Source of the DNA: Plasmodiophora brassicae
Taxonomy: Eukaryota > Endomyxa > Phytomyxea > Plasmodiophorida > Plasmodiophoridae
NCBI GenBank assembly: GCA_039704465.1
Contig: JASFAU010000007.1
Span: forward strand, 1,240,001-1,304,000
Direction of reading: 5' to 3'
DNA length: 64,000 nucleotides
Shown here piece by piece: positions 53,299 through 63,364 of the stretch (positions are counted from its first letter, which is position 1; each line of letters starts with the position of its first letter). The translations under genes and the position numbers were made by a program. Under the pieces are notes generated by a model that saw nothing but the letters and a program-made list of their open reading frames with translations, searched no databases and was not told where the DNA came from.

Positions 53299-55764
53299 AT
53301 GTCGACAGCGGCGACCCGCGAGTGGAATACGGTGGTGGCGGCGCCGCCCCCGCCGGCGTCCAAGTCGGCGTCCGGCGCCGTCGAGCGCCCCATGCTGCAG
53401 TTGTCGTCGGCGCGGCGCTCGTCGACGACGACGCCGTCGTCGTGCCGGTACACGAAATCGGAGATGCTGGCGATGTACCAGCCGTCCGAGCGCCCTCCCG
53501 CCGGGTTCGACTTCCCCGTCCCGGTCGTCGCCGCCGACTGCCTGCCGCCCGTCAACGCGGCGCCGCCGACCGACGCCGAGCAGGACGTCTTCGACAGCGG
53601 GTCCTGGTTCCTGCCCCGGTCGACGTCTTCGTCGTCGACGCCCGCACCTCTACCGCATAAGCGGGGATCCGCGCGCCTATCGGCGTTCGCGCGCTCTCGC
53701 GCCGCCAGCTGGCGCCACGACGAACAGCAACAGCCGCAGGCGCAGCCGGGCGCGCCGGACGATCCCCCTGCGCCCCCCGTGCAGCGTCGCGCCACCTGGC
53801 AAGCCCGGCAAGACCATCACCATCCACGCAATACGACCCCGTGCCGGTCCGATGCCGCCCTGTCCTGGCGTCGCACGAGCGACGTTGGCGAGGCGCAGGA
53901 AGAAACTCCGAAGCTACCGACGGAGGAACGGACGCCAACGCCGCCGCCGCCGCCGCCGCCGTCGGAGCCGACGACGATGACGACGACGATTAGGGATTCC
54001 TGGTGGTACCAGGATCCCGCCGGTGTGGTCCGCGGGCCGTTCTCGCCGCAGGACATGAAGGACTGGTGGTACCAGCGGTACTTTGAGCTGACGCTGCCCG
54101 TCCGGTCCGACCCGTCCAGCGCGTTCGTCCCGCTCGGCGCCCTGTTCCTGAGCGGCGACCCGGCGTTCCTCGACCATGTGCCGATGGTGGTCGCCGCCCC
54201 GCAGCAGCCGCAGCCGCCGCCGCCTGCGCCGCTGCCGTTCGAGGACCCGAACCCGCCGCAGGCGTTCCATCGCACGTTCCAGTCGGCGCACTCGATGTTC
54301 TCCCAGTTCCCGATGCCGTTGCCGGCGGCGCGCCCCGCCGTCGATTCCTGGGTGCTGTCCGGGTTGCAGACCGCTCTCCCGACGCCGTCCTGGTCTCCGT
54401 TCGTGCACCAGCAGCCGGCGGTGCAACCAGGCGGTGCTGCCGAGTTGTACCGCGAGGAAACGGCGCCGCCGACGAGCGCGCCGACGTCGTCATCCGTCGA
54501 ATCGTCGCCGTTGCGGGCGGCCAGTGAAACGCCACCGGAACCGGCTCCTGAGCCTGTTCCCGTCGAGGCGGCGTTGCCCGTGATCACGGAGGCGGCGGTT
54601 GCTGAACCAGCCCAACCCGAACGCGCTCCCGAGGAGCAACACCCGGAGCCCGATGCTGAGCCGTCGGGTCCCGAGCCCGACGTGGAGACGGGCGCGGCAG
54701 AGCGTCCGGCGGCGTCGCCATGGGTGAAGCCGGCCAGTTCGCGGATGTCGCTGGCCGACATCCAGCGCGAAGAGGAGGATGCACGCAGGCGCGCGGAGGC
54801 GGCCGCCGCCAGCGCTCGGCATCTCCAGAAGCAGCAGCAGAAACAGCAGCAGCAGCAATCATCGGGGCCTGCCTGGGCGGCGCCGGGCACGCTGGCACCG
54901 GCATCCATGTCGCTGGCGGAGATCCAGCGCCAGGAGGAGGAGAACCTGAAGGTTCAGGTCACTTCCGCGCCGGCCACGTCGTCGTCGTCGTCGACGGCCT
55001 GGTCGGCGAAGACTGCCCGTGTACCCGCGTTCCAGGAGGCGCCACCGTCGCAATGGTCAACGGCCCCGAAAGCCGGCGCCCCGCTCAGCATGCGCCAGAT
55101 CCTGGACGAGGAGCAACGCGCCAGCGTGGCGGCGCGCGCTCAGGTGCGCCTCGCCAGTGCACCGTCCGGGTGGAGCGCCGCCGTCGCCGGCCAGAAGGTG
55201 TGGTCGCGTCCACCGGCAACGCTGCTGTCGGCACGGTCGGCGGCTCCTGCGCGTCGGCAACCGGCGCCGGCCCCGCCCGTGGCCAGCGACGACAGCGATG
55301 ACGACGCGTTCTGGTCGTCGAAGGTGGCCGCCGAGCCGGGTGAGCCGCGGAAGGCGTCGTCGCCGGGGGCGCCGCCGACCCGGTGCAATACGTTTGGCGG
55401 GCCGCAGCTGTCCCCCGCGTTCCAGCAGTGGTGCCGGTCGCAGCTGGAGCCGATCTGCCCCAACTTCGACATGGCGCTGATCGACTTCCTGGCGACGCTG
55501 ACGTCGCCCGACGACCTGCGCGACTACCTGCACGAGTACGTCGGGCGGTCGCGTGCCGTCGACGAGTTCGCCAGCGGGTTCCTCGCGCATCGCGACTTTG
55601 ACGTCGAGGACAACAGCCTCGTCGTCAGAGGGGGGCGGGCGCAGCGCGCTGGCGGCGACGCCACCGCCGCCGCCGCCAGCGCGAACGGCGTGGCCGAGGC
55701 GCGGGACGAGTCGAAGAAGAAGCATCGGCGCCGGCGCAAGAAGAAGGCGGATGCGCTGCAATAA
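53299..55764 (+). CDS. GYF-domain protein of the GIGYF type
   Basis: Single exon, 821 residues. In animals GIGYF proteins bridge 4EHP to silencing factors and repress translation. N-terminal motif RYTKSEMLAMYQ matches the Y-x4-hydrophobic-Leu 4EHP/eIF4E-binding motif of GIGYF. The GYF domain is clear near residues 235-270: WWYQDPAGVVRGPFSPQDM, KDWWYQRYFELTLPVR. Then a Pro-rich region, repeated MSLADIQREEEDA / MSLAEIQRQEEEN / LSMRQILDEEQRA motifs in Ala-rich helices and a C-terminal helical domain (FQQWCRSQLEPICPNFDMAL; LTSPDDLRDYLHEYVGRSRA) of the kind found at the end of GIGYF-like proteins. The end is basic (KKKHRRRRKKKADALQ). Likely cytoplasmic mRNA regulator. Confidence 0.82.
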   Translation: MSTAATREWNTVVAAPPPPASKSASGAVERPMLQLSSARRSSTTTPSSCRYTKSEMLAMYQPSERPPAGFDFPVPVVAADCLPPVNAAPPTDAEQDVFDSGSWFLPRSTSSSSTPAPLPHKRGSARLSAFARSRAASWRHDEQQQPQAQPGAPDDPPAPPVQRRATWQARQDHHHPRNTTPCRSDAALSWRRTSDVGEAQEETPKLPTEERTPTPPPPPPPSEPTTMTTTIRDSWWYQDPAGVVRGPFSPQDMKDWWYQRYFELTLPVRSDPSSAFVPLGALFLSGDPAFLDHVPMVVAAPQQPQPPPPAPLPFEDPNPPQAFHRTFQSAHSMFSQFPMPLPAARPAVDSWVLSGLQTALPTPSWSPFVHQQPAVQPGGAAELYREETAPPTSAPTSSSVESSPLRAASETPPEPAPEPVPVEAALPVITEAAVAEPAQPERAPEEQHPEPDAEPSGPEPDVETGAAERPAASPWVKPASSRMSLADIQREEEDARRRAEAAAASARHLQKQQQKQQQQQSSGPAWAAPGTLAPASMSLAEIQRQEEENLKVQVTSAPATSSSSSTAWSAKTARVPAFQEAPPSQWSTAPKAGAPLSMRQILDEEQRASVAARAQVRLASAPSGWSAAVAGQKVWSRPPATLLSARSAAPARRQPAPAPPVASDDSDDDAFWSSKVAAEPGEPRKASSPGAPPTRCNTFGGPQLSPAFQQWCRSQLEPICPNFDMALIDFLATLTSPDDLRDYLHEYVGRSRAVDEFASGFLAHRDFDVEDNSLVVRGGRAQRAGGDATAAAASANGVAEARDESKKKHRRRRKKKADALQ

Positions 55765-55810: not shown

Positions 55811-58800
55811 TTATTGGTGGGGTTCGTCGGCGGACGGCGGCGGGTCGTCGTCGTCGCCCGCTTCCGTCAGGTCGTCGAGGCTGGCCACGGACAGGGCGGA
55901 CTCGGCGCGGGGCCTATTAATATCCGGGTCCGCGACTGGCAGCTGCAGCAGCAGCGACGCCTCCGTGACGGGCTGCCCCTGCCGGAGACTGAACGTCGCG
56001 GCGCAGTCCGGCGCCTGGCCCGCCGGGCGCTCCGGCACATCGTCCACTCCGCGGCTGCTGCTGCGACGATGCCGCAGCTCGGGCGCATCGAACAGGCTCA
56101 GGCTCGGCAGCGGGCCTTCGTCCTCCTCGTGGCCGTCGTTGTCGTCATCGTCGTCGTCGTCGTCCACGTCGTCGATATCGCGTAGAGCGTGTACGGCGTC
56201 GCCGTGGCTGGCGCCGTAGTGCTTCAGGGCGTCCGCGTCGCCGTCCTTGTTGTCGTCGTCGGGGCTGTCCGTCTCGATGTCGTCGCCGGATAACGGGACG
56301 GCGTCCATGGCGCGCTCCAGGTCGTTCTCGGCGACGTCGGGCAGCGCGAATCGGGGGGCGTGCGCGTGATCCCAGACGGGCCGCTGCTCCGGGACGGCCA
56401 GCGACACCGACCCATGGCTGACGCTGCGATGGTGCGGTGACGGCAGGGCCGACAGCGGCGACACATGCCGGTCGCCGTTGCCGTGCACCGCGCTCATGGA
56501 CATCGTCGTCGACGACGACGACGACGACTTGGTCGGCGACGACGACTGGCGCCGGTGCCCCTGACTGTGCGTCGACCGGCTGTCGTCGTCGCTGACCTCG
56601 ACGGCGCTGTTGTCGCCGCCGTCCGCGTTGCCGTCGTCGGCGCCGCTGTTGTCGTTGTCGTCGGGCGCCGTCGCCGCCTTGAGGAAGATCTCGACGCGGA
56701 AGTTCGCGTCGAACCGCTTGCTCTTGGCGGCCCCATCGAGGAACTCGCGCTCGATGACGACCTTGTTGCTGCCGTGCACCAGGTCGACGTTGATGTACCC
56801 GACAAACATGAGCTTGCGGCCGGTCGCCTTCCTGTGGAAGAATGCGATGCGGACGTCGCCCCGGACGGTCACGTCGACGGGCAGGTCGACAATGTTCCTG
56901 GCGGGGCGCGTCACCTCCACGCCCCTGGCCGCCGAGTCGAATAGGACCTTGCCGCCCCGGTAGATTCTGCACACCGGATCTGCACGCGACCCCACCAACG
57001 TGTCAGCAGTCGTTGGAGGCATGCACGCGCGGCCGACGCACCGCACCCGCCGATCGGGCTCATGTCCGGCTCGGGGCAGAACCGGATCAGGGTCAGCGTC
57101 GCGTACGCCGCGTCGTAGGCGAAGGGCTCCCGCAGCCGGTCGGTCGCCTGCAGCAGCTTATCGAACATGTGCCTGCCGGGGCGGGGGGTCCGCGTGTCAG
57201 TTTGCGACCGAAGCAGGCGACGGTTCGGCCAGTGCCGCCCCGACTCACACGTAGCGTATCTGGCTGGGGATCGTGACGCCCTTGCCGTCCGCCGTGCGTC
57301 GCTCGGCGAAGCAGGCCAGGGCGGCGTGCGCCGTCGGCTGGAGGCCGGCGTACAGCAGGTAGGCGGACAGCATGACGCCGGTGCGCCCCTTGCCGGCCTT
57401 GCAATGGGTGGCGACAACGTTGTCGGGGTCGGCGTCCAGGTACCGCTGCACGTCGAGGCAGTATTCGGCCATCTGGCGCAGCAGCGGCGGGTGGTGGTCG
57501 TCGAACGGGAAGCAGGCGACGTTGCCGTCGAAGCAGGCGGGGTCGTAGGAGCGCTCCGAGCACAGGTTGACGACCCGGCAGTGCCCGGCGTGGTACGTGT
57601 GGATGAACCGCTGCACCTCGTCCATCGGGTTGCGGTAGACGCCCTCGAGGCTGGACGAGGGGAACCCCATGACGATCAGGCGGTCGGTGACGTAGGTCAG
57701 GTCGAGGTCGAACCCGTCCTGCTGGTACCGGATCTTGTTCTTGCTGACCAGGCTGCGGATCTTGCCGGACACGTTCTGCAGGAAGATCGAGCCGCGCCGC
57801 GAGATCGACGACGACGACGACTTCATGATCGACCCGCGCTTCAGCGACCGCTGCGTCGCGCTGCCCATCGACATGGACGCCTGCTGCGACGTGGTCGAGC
57901 GCCGCAGCGACGACCGCCTGCCGGACGCCAGCTCGACGTCGGCGACCGCCGCCTTCTCGGTGCGTTTCGCCTTGACGTCGATGACGACGGTCGCCTTGCC
58001 GACGCGGACGTCGAACCGCTGCGGGTCGTCGTCGTCGAGGCGGATCCGGACGCTGGCCGACCCGAGCGACACGCCGCTGCCGCCGCTGACGTCCACGTCG
58101 AGCGTCGCGTTCGACGCCGCCGACATGGCGTCGTGCGGCATCTCGAACGTCTGGTTCCAGGCGCCGCCCGGCGACGCCGCCGTCGTCGCCACCTGTCGCG
58201 CCCCGAACCGGCACCGGACGATCGCCCCGTTGCCGTCGTCGCCGTCGATGCTGCGCACGTGGACCTTGACGCGCCGGACGGGCGCCCCGTTGTCGGGCAG
58301 GCGCGCGTGCAGGCGCGTCCAGTGCACGGGCGCGAAGAACGGGTGCGCGAACAGCGCCGGCAGGTGCGTGCCGAGGCGCTCGCCGGGCGCCCGGCGCAGG
58401 CACGCGTCGATGAAGTGCCGGGCGGGTTCGCTGCAGAACGGCGGGTAGCGGACGGCGCCGGCGCGGACGCGCTCGGCGAGCTCGTCGGGCGTGCGGCCGC
58501 GGAACGGCGGGAACCCGACCAGGAGCTCGTAGAGCAGGACGCCCAGGCGCCACCAGTCCGCAGTCATCGCCTCGGCGCCGTCGTCGAGCAGCTCGGGCGT
58601 CGTGAACTCGTTGACGGGCGGCGACACGGACACGGGCGTTGTCGCCGTTGGCGGGCGCGGGAAGTCCACGACGAGCACGTGGCCGTCGTCGTCGGCGAAG
58701 ATCGTCTCGCTGCGCATGGCGCGCAGCGAGCGGCCGCGCGAGTGCAGGAACGCGATGCAGAGGGCGACCTGGGCGACGTACGACCGGGCGAGGTCCTCGG

Positions 58801-60025
58801 GCAGGCGTCGGGCGGCGCGCACGCGGTCGAACAGGCGGTTGCCGGGCGGCGCGAACGTGTACACGGCCCAGGAGCGGTCCGGGGCGTCGCCGCGTGCCAC
58901 CTGCCGCACCAGGAACGGGTGCTCCAGCGCCGCCATGTCGTCGATGACGCCCAGGGCGGCGTCGTAGCACGGGTCGCGGCGCATGACGACCTGCAGGAGG
59001 TACGTGCCGCCCGTCGCCCGGTGCCGCACCCGGTACATCATGCCGATGCCGCTGTCCGCCAGCTTCTCGTCGCGCTCGTAGTCGGCGTAGCCGGCGCCGG
59101 CGGCCGCGTCCCCGAACACGACGTCGTCGCTGGCGATCGTGTTGATCGCCGACGCCATGCGCCGGTGCGCCGTCTGGCTCGACTTCTTCGTGCGCTCCAC
59201 CATGGTCAGGTTGCGCAACGAGCGCGGCGGCGCGCCGTCGTCATCGGTGGCGGCGCTGGCCGCTCGCGACGGCATGCGCCTCAGCGTCGGCGCCACGGTC
59301 GACTCCGGATCGGGCTCGTCGTTGTCCAGGTCGTCCTTGTCGACGTCGTCGTCGTCGTCGCCGTCGTCGCGCCTGGACTTGCCCGTCTCGTCCGGCGAGC
59401 AGGACCCCTGCGTGGACGCCCGGGTCGCCGCCTTCTTCACGCGCCGGATCGTATCGAACGCGCCGCTGTGCTGCAGGATGGACGCCATGTTGATGGGGGT
59501 GAACGCGCGCGACTGCGTCGTCGTCTGCGCCATCATCGGCGGCGCCAGCAGCGTGTCCATGGCCATCGACGGGAACACGCCGGACGCGTTCGGCTTCCAG
59601 AACTTGCCGGCGGTCGTGTGCGGCGACAACGTCGGCGAGGCCGTCGGCGACGACGACGCCGTCGACGTCGGCGCGCTCGCCCGGGCCGTCTGCCAGCACT
59701 GCTTCATGGCGGCGACCCAGTTCTCGGCCTCGTCGGGCGACGACGCCTCCAGGTCGAACCGTCGGTTGGCGACGTCGAACCGGAACCGGGTGGGTTTGCC
59801 GGCGACCAGCTCGATGGCGGTGACCTCGAGCAACGGCAGGGCGCCCTGGGCGTGCCGCAGGTCGGACGTCTTCCCGTACGCCAGGGACGTCTCGAACAGG
59901 TGGAAGTACCGTTTCTGCCAGGCGCGCATACCCGTGATCCCTTTCGGCGACTTCTTCCGCAGGTACCCTTTCAGGACGACCCGGCCGCCGTCCATGACGG
60001 TGCCGCCGGCGACCTCCGCCGACAT
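55811..60025 (-). CDS. PH - pseudokinase - C2 - PTEN phosphatase - C2 fusion protein
   Basis: About 1,350 residues in three exons. Residues 17-113: PH domain (VVLKGYLRKKSPKGITGMRA; WQKRYFHLF). Residues about 315-575: AGC-type protein kinase fold, with the Lys of VAIK lost (TYLLQVVMRRD), HRD changed (LRAMRSETIF) and DFG changed to DFP; later landmarks ADWWRLGVLLYELLVGFPPF are normal, so it is a pseudokinase. Residues 575-690: C2-like (VRRVKVHVRSIDGDD). From 760: PTEN phosphatase (NKIRYQQDGFDLDLTYV; FPFDDHHPP; catalytic HCKAGKGRTGVM; VTIPSQIRYV). Introns with donor GTGAGTCGG (about 57244-57166) and GTGCGTCGG (about 57048-56986) lead to FDKLLQATDRLREPFAYDAA and the PTEN C2 domain (VCRIYRGGKVLFDS; MFVGYINVDLVHGSNKVV; FDANFRVEIFLKA). 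A long acidic, Ser-rich tail follows. Confidence 0.86.
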
Positions 60026-60331
60026 CGCGTCGTCGTCGCAGGCCGTCCGGCGCGCCTGTCTCCCGACAGATATTTAGTGGACGTCCCAATCGATCCCGGA
60101 AATCTCACCGTACGCCCCATCTGGCGTTCGCTGTGGCCTGTGCGCCGACCCAGCGGGTACGGGGGGCGGGGCAGAGCGGACGGGCGGCGCTGCGCAAAAC
60201 GCCGCTTGCGCCCTCGACCGCCGGATATAGCGGATGCGCAGTCGCACGTACTGCGCACCGCGTGACTGCGTCGCCGCGTCTGCTGTGGGGGCTTCGGCGA
60301 CGGCGACGACGCGGTGGGGGCCCCCACGGAC
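60026..60331. promoter_or_regulatory. Divergent promoter region PTEN fusion / desaturase
   Basis: 306 bp between start codons at 60025 and 60332. GC-rich, no motif assigned. If the desaturase starts at 60380 the region is 48 bp longer. Confidence 0.4.
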
Positions 60332-61543
60332 ATGCGCTGCGGAGGTCGCCATACATCGAAAGCGTCGGTCGCCCGCGATATGACGGTGCCGCCCTTGTCG
60401 GGGACGCTGGCCGGGTACCGGCGCCCGTTCGCGGCGCTGCCCGACGACCTGCCGACGCTGTCCGACGTGCGCCGGGCGATGCCGCCGGAGTGCTTCTGGC
60501 GCTCCGCGATGCGTTCGTTCGTCTACGCGATCGGGTCCGTGTCGCTGACCGTCGGGTGCGCCGTCCTGGCCTGCTACGTCCTGCCGGCGCCGTCCTTCTC
60601 GCCGCTGTCGATCCTGGCCTGGCTGGCGTACGCCGTCGTGAACGGGACGATCGCGACCGGCGTCTGGGTCGTCGCCCACGAGTGCGGGCACGGCGCGTTC
60701 TCGAGCCAGGAGTGGCTGTGCGACACGGTCGGCTTCGTCCTGCACTCGGCGCTCCTGGTCCCGTACTTCAGCTGGAAACGCAGCCACGCCCTGCACCACA
60801 GCCGCACGAACCACATGACGCTGGGCGAGACGCACGTGCCGCCGTACCGCCGCACCGGGTTCGCCTACGAGCGCCTGTACAACTGGATCGGGCACGACGC
60901 GTTCGCCGTGTTCAACCTCGTGACGCACCTGCTGATCGGGTGGCCCATGTACCTGCTGTTCGGCGCGACCGGGTCGCCGGCGCGCGGCAAGTCGAACCAC
61001 TTCGTGCCGACGAACGACAAGGTGTTCCCCGGGCGCTCCTGGAAGGTCAAGGTCCTGCTGTCCGACGTCGGCGTCGTGTCGGCGCTGGCGATGATCGCGC
61101 TGTTCTCGACAAGCGCCGCCTGGGCGCTGGGCGTGTACGGCGGCCCGTACCTGGTCGTCAACGCCTGGCTGGTCCTGTACACCTGGATGCACCACACCGA
61201 CGTGGACGTGCCGCACTTCAGCGACGAGCACTGGACGTGGATGAAGGGCGCCCTGTGCACGGTCGACCGGCCGTACCCGGCGCTGATCGACTTCCTGCAC
61301 CACCACATCGGGTCGACGCACGTCGTCCACCACATCGACTACCGGATCCCGCACTACTCGGCGAAGGCGGCGACGAACGCCTTCGTCCGGAAGTGGCCCC
61401 ACCTGTACAAGTACGACCCGACGCCGGTCTGGCGCGCGACCTGGCGCGTCGCCGGGCACTGCGTCCGCGTCATCCCGATCGGCAAGGCGTGGTTCTACAC
61501 GAGCCCGGCCGCCAAGCCCGCCGCCAACCAGCTGGAAGGCTGA
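60332..61543 (+). CDS. Delta-12-type membrane fatty-acid desaturase
   Basis: Di-iron desaturase that puts a double bond into oleoyl chains in ER lipids, giving linoleate (or a related regiospecificity). Single exon, 403 residues. Three His boxes: HECGHGAF, HALHHSRTNH and THVVHHIDY, each with the spacing of FAD2-type enzymes. Supporting landmarks: PTLSDVRRAMPPECFWRSAM, VGFVLHSALLVPYFSWKRSH, WLVLYTWMHHTDVDVPHF and FLHHHIGSTHVVHH. No cytochrome b5 domain. Start is the first ATG (MRCGGRHTSKAS); a second in-frame ATG at 60380 (MTVPPLSGTLAGYR) is equally plausible. It is convergent with the PH-pseudokinase gene, with 46 bp between stops. Confidence 0.92.
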   Translation: MRCGGRHTSKASVARDMTVPPLSGTLAGYRRPFAALPDDLPTLSDVRRAMPPECFWRSAMRSFVYAIGSVSLTVGCAVLACYVLPAPSFSPLSILAWLAYAVVNGTIATGVWVVAHECGHGAFSSQEWLCDTVGFVLHSALLVPYFSWKRSHALHHSRTNHMTLGETHVPPYRRTGFAYERLYNWIGHDAFAVFNLVTHLLIGWPMYLLFGATGSPARGKSNHFVPTNDKVFPGRSWKVKVLLSDVGVVSALAMIALFSTSAAWALGVYGGPYLVVNAWLVLYTWMHHTDVDVPHFSDEHWTWMKGALCTVDRPYPALIDFLHHHIGSTHVVHHIDYRIPHYSAKAATNAFVRKWPHLYKYDPTPVWRATWRVAGHCVRVIPIGKAWFYTSPAAKPAANQLEG

Positions 61544-61589: not shown

Positions 61590-63364
61590 CTATTGCTGGT
61601 GCTGCCTACTTAACGCGGTCGCCTGTTCGACCATCGCGTCGGGGACGTCCTGGTTGCGCACGTCGACCAGGCGCCAGTCGACGTCCTTGAAGAACGCGTG
61701 CGCGTGGACGGCCCGGAACCCGTTCGGCCCGGAGCCCAACCCTGCGGTCCGACGTATTAGGGCAGGCGGACATATACGGGACGGCGCTTACGTTTGGTCG
61801 TGTCCACCTGCAGCAGGGCGCCGAGCAGGGCGGTGGCGTCCGGCGACATGAACGGCGGGTACCGCACGCTGCAGGACAGGATCTTCTCGTTCAGCGCGTC
61901 CGCGTTCTGGTCGCGGAACGGCGGGAACCCGACCAGCAGCTCGTAGATGAGGATGCCCAGGCGCCACCAGTCCGAGTCGGCCGTGTCGATGCCGACGGTG
62001 ACGAACTCGGGCGACCGGTACTCCGGGTTCCGGCACGGCGTGACGTTCGCCGACGTGTCCATGGCGACCCGGAAGTCGGTCAGCACGACGTGGCCGGTGA
62101 TGTCGATGCCGATGTGCTCCGGGTCCATGTTCCGGAACAGGTTCCCCTTGCGGTGCAGGTACCGAACCGCGCAGACGACCTCGGCGGCCAGGAACCGGAC
62201 GACGTCCTCCGGCAGGCGGCGCTGCGCGCGCAGGTGCTGGAACAGCGTCCCGCCCTGCACGAACTCGTACACGGCCCACGACTCGTCGGGCGTCACCTCG
62301 AAATCCAGGCACTGCATGATGTACGGGTTGTTGAACGCCGCCATCCGGCGCATCGCGTCGACCGCCATCTGAGCACACACACAAAGAGCGCGCGCTTGAG
62401 TGCTTGGGTCCCCAGGGTTGTCCATCGACCCATCCGCTGCTTACGGTTGCGGTCGCGAGATCGGCCTTAACACGCTGCATCATGTAGAGGTTGCCGGTCG
62501 GCGCGTTCTCGACGACGCACAGCGTGCCGAACTGCCCCTGGCCGAGGATCTTCTTCACGGTCATGTCGGCGATCTGGAAGCGCATCTCGGCCAGGCTGGA
62601 CGTGGGTTCGTGGTGGGCGGCCAGGGCGCCCAGCGACCCCTTGCTGCTGCTGTTGTTGGCAGCGGGCGACGCCGGCAGGTCGTCGGTGCTCGGCATTGGG
62701 GGGACGGTGACACTGGCAACCCGCATGTTCATCATCGACGGCCCGTTCGACAGGCTCTGCAACTGCGACAGGTCGATCCGGGTGAACGCGTTGCTGGCCG
62801 TGGACGCGCTGGGCGCCGACGGCGAGTTCAGGTCGTCGAGGACGCCTTTCGTGTCCTTCCAGAACTTGCCGGTCGGCAGGCGATCCGGGTCCGAGTTCGA
62901 GTGCGACCGGCGCGCGCGCCCTTTGACCAGCTTGATCTGCGCGGCGACCGCGTCGACCCATTCGTCGACGTCCGCCGGCGTCGACGCCAACAGGCTGAAG
63001 ACGCGCGAGGCGATGATAATGTCGAACCGGCAGGGATCCTTGGGGACGCGTTTCACGGCCACCATCTCATGAATGGGGATGGCACCTGCGGCTGCTGCTG
63101 AGTCGAACGAAACGACGACGACGTTCCGCCGCGCGGACCAGACCTTGGTTCTTGGCATCCTCGCCGTTCTCCTTACTGTACGTCAATACGTTATCGTACA
63201 GTATGAAGTACCGTCGCTGCCAGAGCGTCAGGCCGACGAGGCCCTTCGGACTCTTCTTGCGAAGGTACCCGCGAATCACGACCTGGCACGCACGCGCATC
63301 AGGCCAAGCAACGACGGCGCTGGACGCCCCGCGACTGGACCTTGGCGGGGCCGCTCCCCGGCAT
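61590..63364 (-). CDS. PH - AGC-like pseudokinase
   Basis: Paralog of the front half of the PTEN fusion, without the phosphatase. MPGSGPAK, then an intron (GTCCAGTCGC...GTGCCAG) to VVIRGYLRKKSPKGLVGLTL and WQRRYFILYDN (PH). A second intron (about 63158-63108) continues to IPIHEMVAVKRVPKDPCRFD and DEWVDAVAAQIK. Kinase-like part: KILGQGQFGTLCVVENAPTG (G-loop kept), LYMMQRVKAD (VAIK Lys not at its place), FRNMDPEHIGIDITGHVVL (HRD Asp to Asn) and TDFRVA (DFG to DFR), then DSDWWRLGILIYELLVGFPP. Two more introns (about 62475-62370, 61800-61748) give the AGC tail start KRLGSGPNGFRAVHAHAFF, ending SRQHQQ. Substitutions suggest no phosphotransfer; ATP binding may remain. Likely a membrane-recruited scaffold. 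Confidence 0.82.

Follow-up and report, generated by a model that had tools for sequence, protein, structure and literature searches.

What might a single polypeptide do that carries a PH domain and an Akt-like kinase body in front of a PTEN phosphatase? The question is raised by a gene on the minus strand, at 60025-55811, of a 64,000-nucleotide stretch of Plasmodiophora brassicae DNA (GenBank assembly GCA_039704465.1, contig JASFAU010000007.1, positions 1,240,001 to 1,304,000), which we call the window and whose numbering we use throughout. We modelled this fusion gene as three exons and two GT-AG introns, with splice sites placed by eye, encoding a protein of 1358 residues. Our preferred answer, to which we assign a probability of about 0.55 on the sequence evidence, is that the product would be a membrane-targeted, PTEN-type 3-phosphatase of phosphatidylinositol 3,4,5-trisphosphate (PIP3), governed in cis by a non-catalytic PH-pseudokinase module with the layout of Akt. 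The parts of the gene and its product are as follows.

57249..60025 (-), exon 1: 925 codons plus 2 nt in one stop-free frame, covering the PH domain, linker, pseudokinase, C2-like stretch and the PTEN phosphatase domain as far as RYV
57173..57248 (-), intron 1: 76 nt, GT-AG
57042..57172 (-), exon 2: 131 nt, end of the phosphatase domain and start of the PTEN C2 domain
56980..57041 (-), intron 2: 62 nt, GT-AG
55811..56979 (-), exon 3: remainder of the PTEN C2 domain, then an acidic/Ser-rich tail of ~290 residues and the stop
59696..59980 (-), PH domain: residues 16-110, with WQKRYF in strand 2 and no [KR]xR signature
59594..59605 (-), KFWK motif: residues 141-144, exact in 11 of 18 family proteins scanned, neighbouring paralogue included
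58298..59104 (-), AGC-fold pseudokinase: residues 308-576, with Q345 for the VAIK Lys, A436 for the HRD Asp and D454-F-P456 for DFG
57965..58273 (-), beta-rich C2-like stretch: residues 585-687, where relatives have C2
57172..57757 (-), PTEN phosphatase domain: residues 757-926, spanning intron 1, with a PTEN-like basic N-terminal block
57485..57511 (-), D-loop FPFDDHHPP: residues 839-847
57377..57406 (-), P-loop HCKAGKGRTG: residues 874-883, identical to human PTEN, a CX5R site with the PTEN-specific Lys
56690..57147 (-), PTEN C2 domain: about residues 935-1066, spanning intron 2

That a PH-pseudokinase and a complete PTEN share one polypeptide had been proposed in a first-pass annotation of this locus, and the proposal holds: the open frame has no stop between the parts, and their order recurs in 12 other proteins. 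Splicing out intron 1 gives back the PTEN-like RYVHMFDKLL, and the main text of the P. brassicae genome paper reports introns of ~60 bp (PMC4471660). Judged from its sequence the fusion gene is real, and it is homology along the frame, not frame length, that makes it convincing. Long open frames come cheaply in this GC-rich DNA, because the opposite strand is also open across the fusion gene, for 1048 codons (57119-60265, plus strand); this antisense frame is probably an effect of GC bias.

The C-terminal half has the features expected of a PTEN. In sequence comparison its phosphatase and C2 domains are closest to human PTEN (1d5r, E 4e-64), and Pfam finds a dual-specificity (DSP)-type phosphatase in exon 1 and PTEN_C2 (PF10409) in exon 3, the latter at 45.7 bits against a cut-off of 27.1. 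The TI loop reads VTIPSQIRY. Together, the P-loop, the Asp-His of the D-loop, the TI loop and the C-terminal C2 domain mark this half, by sequence, as a PTEN, for which removal of the 3-phosphate from PIP3 is the predicted activity.

The kinase half presents the opposite picture at its catalytic positions. Pfam places Pkinase at residues 316-564 (76.5 bits), and this match and the predicted AGC fold of the model confirm a kinase fold in the middle region; the nearest sequences are PKC eta, Akt2 and PKA. The losses of the VAIK Lys, HRD Asp and DFG Gly that had been read from this frame are borne out by the replacements listed above. All three residues are absent, and the DFG Asp is kept, in each of the 19 family proteins examined, a PTEN-less paralogue included, with replacements that differ from protein to protein and a Gly-rich loop that is degenerate in many. 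The DFG Asp, a D-x-W motif, the Pro of the APE position and the fold itself are nonetheless invariant in 11 rows aligned at ~30% identity to the window protein. These alignments indicate that the kinase part persists as a dead fold, usually next to an intact phosphatase.

How far this module deserves the name Akt-like, as it was first called, depends on what is meant. The description stands for layout, a PH domain followed by an AGC fold, and for fold: Foldseek ranks AKT1 first for the window model and places AKT1 and AKT2 high among the matches of both structure models, at root-mean-square deviations above 20, so that the likeness holds domain by domain and not as one arrangement. It does not stand for family membership, given the lost catalytic residues, the absence of any Pkinase_C match (PF00433) in exon 1 at E<=0.01, and, as a less clear sign, a PH domain without Akt among its PDB matches at E<=1 (discussed below). 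A C2 domain between kinase and PTEN, also part of the first reading, found no backing in the window's own sequence. Pfam places C2 at the corresponding position in the relatives P0011, P0121, P0123, P0124 and P0125, and the structure model gives residues 585-687 eight strands at a predicted local distance difference test score of about 53-65; a C2 profile built from the relatives reaches 3.7 bits on this stretch against 4.7 for the best shuffle, no better than shuffles. We therefore do not claim a C2 domain ahead of PTEN in the window protein.

The first-pass annotation had suggested looking for the same architecture elsewhere, and this search yielded at least 12 further proteins, mostly environmental ones, with PH, kinase and PTEN in the same order. 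In each of three protein searches about 7,990 candidates were scored; the listings comprise the best 120 of 171, 164 and 535 matches, so that all family counts are lower bounds. The 317 proteins obtained, together with the window protein and its neighbouring paralogue, made 319 that were scanned with kinase and PTEN profiles; there were 132 matches to the kinase profile and 203 to the PTEN profile, with 16 proteins in both sets. Because the profiles were built from family members, they are biased towards such members. The double matches comprise the window protein, P0001 (its own copy), the 12 PH-pseudokinase-PTEN proteins (P0011, P0016, P0020, P0021, P0022, P0023, P0026, P0027, P0031, P0049, P0127 and P0248, two of them with only a partial or degenerate PTEN), P0263 and P0247; the last was rejected as a kinase-PTEN fusion, with no kinase found by Pfam at E<=0.001. 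Independently of our profiles, Pfam recovers PH above its cut-off in all 12 fusions, Pkinase in 11 (P0026 falls below) and a PTEN-type phosphatase or PTEN_C2 in 10, missing P0049, which is cut off, and P0127, which is degenerate. The alignment of P0011 covers 98% of the query region, with 33% identity.

Across the 12 fusions that cover the PTEN catalytic site, window included, the CX5R site is kept in 10; the P-loop reads HCKAGKGRTG in nine and HCNTGKGRTG in P0027. Ser replaces the catalytic Cys in P0248, the P-loop Arg is lost in P0127, and P0049 ends upstream of the site. In P0248 and P0127 the kinase and PTEN sites thus both look lost, and these may be double pseudoenzymes. Other architectures were seen among the scanned proteins: PTEN-less P0124 and P0126 continue the same N-terminal module into an apparent coiled coil and a Cys/His-rich end (by eye), and P0003, P0238 and P0239 carry several tandem PTEN units plus PH domains. 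Taken together, the PH-pseudokinase-PTEN proteins appear to form a conserved protein family, so far undescribed. Annotation can mislead here: the JGI name of P0016 mentions PTEN alone, and that of the PTEN-less P0123 a serine/threonine protein kinase.

In proteins this divergent, a kinase that is always dead next to a PTEN site that is mostly kept suggests selection for a non-catalytic role of the kinase. We envisage that the PH domain, with C2 in the relatives, would bring PTEN to a phosphoinositide-bearing membrane, where the PH ligand need not be PIP3. The pseudokinase may act as a docking part or conformational switch, for example by preventing PTEN from reaching the membrane or by bringing it together with partners of AGC kinases, and PTEN would thus remove the 3-phosphate at a chosen site or time. 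More tentatively, and with less confidence than we attach to this mechanism, these proteins may belong to an undescribed family, widespread among eukaryotes, whose PTEN is permanently attached to a catalytically dead kinase body of Akt type. The brake on PI3K signalling would then carry a dead copy of the accelerator, which would give it the accelerator's membrane address and upstream partners and set signal and termination in one molecule; some members (P0127, P0248) would perhaps be pure scaffold.

The surroundings of the fusion gene bear on how its N-terminal module is to be understood. Three further genes or frames lie nearby.

61590..63364 (-), PH-pseudokinase paralogue: modelled with 5 exons, 510 aa; PH, KFWK and pseudokinase
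60380-61543 (+), fatty acid desaturase frame: PF00487, 67.5 bits, between the fusion gene and the paralogue
53302-55761 (+), GYF-domain protein frame: ~820 residues, convergent with the fusion gene

The paralogue lies 1.6 kb from the fusion gene and is 46.7% (43/92) identical to it in the PH domain and 38.6% (100/259) in the kinase; neither C2 nor PTEN was found in it. Its model has four introns, and the PH-kinase part of the fusion is intronless. A PTEN-less paralogue in the same genome implies that the PH-pseudokinase module has a life without PTEN. The assembly in which the window lies has 25.34 Mb in 21 contigs. It holds at least six PTEN_C2 loci plus another PTEN-type phosphatase match on C13, and a class I-like PI3K is present. 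PH-kinases elsewhere (L033, L034, L035) keep HRD and appear CaMK-like or TKL-like by eye. No active Akt was recognised, none of four Pkinase_C matches having a PH match within 5 kb by inspection, in an exon-wise search that split PH domains may escape. Two other PTEN loci have distinctive upstream regions: L015 (G000:C8:1270000-1275500) has PH matches ahead of PTEN, one reading WKMRYF, the W-K-x-R form missing from the window PH, and L019 (G000:C7:155000-161500) has hydrophobic segments ahead of a PTEN-like domain and is, by eye, perhaps a voltage-sensing phosphatase.

Several other explanations of the locus have to be set against ours. That two adjacent genes are being read as one is conceivable where the fusion gene is known from DNA sequence alone and GC-rich sequence yields long chance frames. 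We consider it very improbable: besides the unbroken frame, each of the eight segments into which the coding sequence was divided has a third-codon-position G+C content of 0.91-1.00, the recurrence of the domain order in 12 other proteins speaks against a pair of neighbouring genes, and P0001 (926 aa), the database copy of the window's own frame, has a cluster of 8 members, from 3 contigs, behind it. Moreover P0027 is an MMETSP transcript marked type:complete, which places PH, pseudokinase and PTEN on one mRNA in at least one organism. The kinase half might instead be a passenger, a decayed kinase kept as a mere linker in what is simply another PTEN paralogue. The genome's several PTEN_C2 loci, the lost catalytic residues and a kinase half without known partner would agree with this; the invariant fold, DFG Asp, D-x-W and APE-position Pro do not, nor does the neighbouring paralogue, which retains the module without PTEN as though it were kept for itself, nor P0124 and P0126, where the module is joined to the apparent coiled coil instead. 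On balance we find a passenger role unlikely. Some kinases missing one canonical residue remain active, and with the DFG Asp kept in 19 of 19 proteins the kinase part could be catalytic by an unusual route. Three catalytic positions lost jointly in all 19, with varied replacements and in many members a degenerate Gly-rich loop, make this much harder to entertain than a passenger role.

The alternative that comes nearest to our own is that the PH domain binds PIP3, so that the protein is recruited by its own substrate and itself curbs PIP3 signals, as negative feedback in cis; the first-pass annotation had proposed such a PIP3-sensing, self-limiting protein. It is a PH-type domain that binds PIP3 in Akt, PIP3 is what PTEN acts on, and the genome has its class I-like PI3K. 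The window PH (Pfam, residues 16-110, 46.4 bits) has Myosin X, PLEKHA6 and TAPP1 as its first matches when compared alone with PDB sequences, and the PH domains of Myosin X and TAPP1 bind 3-phosphoinositides; Akt is absent among its 44 PDB matches at E<=1, in sequence comparison only. The canonical PIP3 signature of PH domains is W-[KR]-x-R. Strand 2 has W-K-x-R in Myosin X and TAPP1, W-N-K-R in PLEKHA6 and W-Q-K-R in the window protein, and the signature is missing from 18 of 18 family PH domains (17 scored by a pattern script, and P0127, which escaped the pattern, read directly): the position after the Trp is occupied by Q in 16, by S in P0020 and by H in P0127, never by K or R. WQxR is the form found in CERT/FAPP-type binders of phosphatidylinositol 4-phosphate, and CERT is among the window PH matches, weakly (E 0.03). 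This argument from the signature is not decisive, since PLEKHA6 also does without the basic residue and PH domains can bind via other sites. The PH sequence is thus compatible with PIP3 sensing and gives it no support, and we regard feedback through PIP3 as doubtful, if less so than a passenger role. Over the whole set scanned for it, the KFWK motif stands after the PH domain in 13 rows, including the PTEN-PH protein P0122, and the P0011 model has a low-confidence helix after it (residues 141-154).

A PTEN governed in cis by its PH-pseudokinase module also has observations to contend with, and they weigh against it. The models give contact between the two halves no direct support, their predicted template modelling scores being only 0.42-0.46; a C2 domain that would aid membrane binding is not established in the window protein; and the phosphatase, too, seems lost in P0127 and P0248, so that catalytic output is not conserved in some proteins. 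The trees add to these. In the PTEN tree the ten fusion rows need 6 label changes, where a clade would need 1, and starred branches force at least 2. The window PTEN pairs with P0019, a cryptophyte-labelled non-fusion (98/80), and its most identical row is another non-fusion, P0024 (61%). The partner of P0023 changes between the trees, from P0027 in that of the kinase (100/97) to P0011 in that of PTEN (96/76).

Other features of the trees give some order. In the PTEN tree the fusion label nonetheless clusters beyond chance, with as few changes in 3 of 500 shuffles, and two groupings recur in both trees: P0020 with P0021, and P0016 with P0022 plus P0026. A branch with 100/100 support sets eight control kinases apart in the kinase tree, where fused pseudokinases intermingle with unfused ones, the deep forks are weakly supported and the window is flagged for unusual letter make-up; some unfused rows (P0121, P0123, P0125) may be cut by contig ends or introns. 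A single origin of the fusion is not supported, as the PTEN tree is poorly resolved and the fusions are not one clade. From its pairing with P0019, the window fusion may have its own, separate origin.

The PI3K-Akt-PTEN circuit is among the best studied in signalling. With a recurring natural pairing in cis of a dead kinase of Akt layout with PTEN, one could test whether a lipid phosphatase can be regulated by AGC pseudokinases, how PTEN is targeted in little-studied eukaryotes and how the circuit was rewired in evolution. The first reading knew of no described protein with this order. Our literature search, outside which lay supplements and most subscription journals, likewise found no description of PH-pseudokinase-PTEN, and the words kinase, PTEN and phosphatidylinositol are absent from the main text of the P. 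brassicae genome paper (PMC4471660); with 12 other proteins sharing it, the architecture is not unique to this organism.

Among known systems, Akt/PKB has the same order of PH domain and AGC kinase fold; the window protein differs in its three lost catalytic residues, the lack of a Pkinase_C match, a PH domain without the PIP3 signature and nearer to other PH domains by sequence, and the attached PTEN. Human PTEN (PDB 1d5r, 7jvx) shares the phosphatase and C2 domains, HCKAGKGRTG, the D-loop DH, the VTIPSQ loop and the basic N-terminal block, but stands alone, whereas the window protein has ~755 residues of PH and dead kinase ahead of PTEN and a longer tail. Voltage-sensing phosphatases (Ci-VSP and TPTE2, among the sequence matches) likewise place a PTEN-type phosphatase behind a foreign N-terminal sensor, which in their case is a membrane voltage sensor, unlike the window's N-terminal half. 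P0263 (737 aa, EukProt transcript), a separate kinase-PTEN fusion, also has a kinase domain followed by an intact PTEN; in it no PH was found, and the kinase, non-AGC by eye and presumably Ste20-like, has intact VAIK, HRD and DFG motifs. In the consulted sections of published work, ciliates have Akt-like kinases and PTENs as separate proteins (PMC3823935), and Phytophthora sojae joins kinase and phosphatase in one polypeptide, with a single mRNA reported for five genes; its phosphatases are PPM, not PTEN, and are described as bifunctional, unlike the window protein (PMC10925823). Pfam found no myotubularin, LRR or ROCO family in exon 1 or exon 3 of the fusion at E<=0.01. The nearest printed parallel we found, again from the consulted sections, is the amoebozoan IMLRK proteins (inactive myotubularin/LRR/ROCO/kinase), which also unite a phosphoinositide-phosphatase fold with a protein-kinase domain and are a mirror image of ours: there the phosphatase is inactive, and in the window protein the kinase (PMC6563779).

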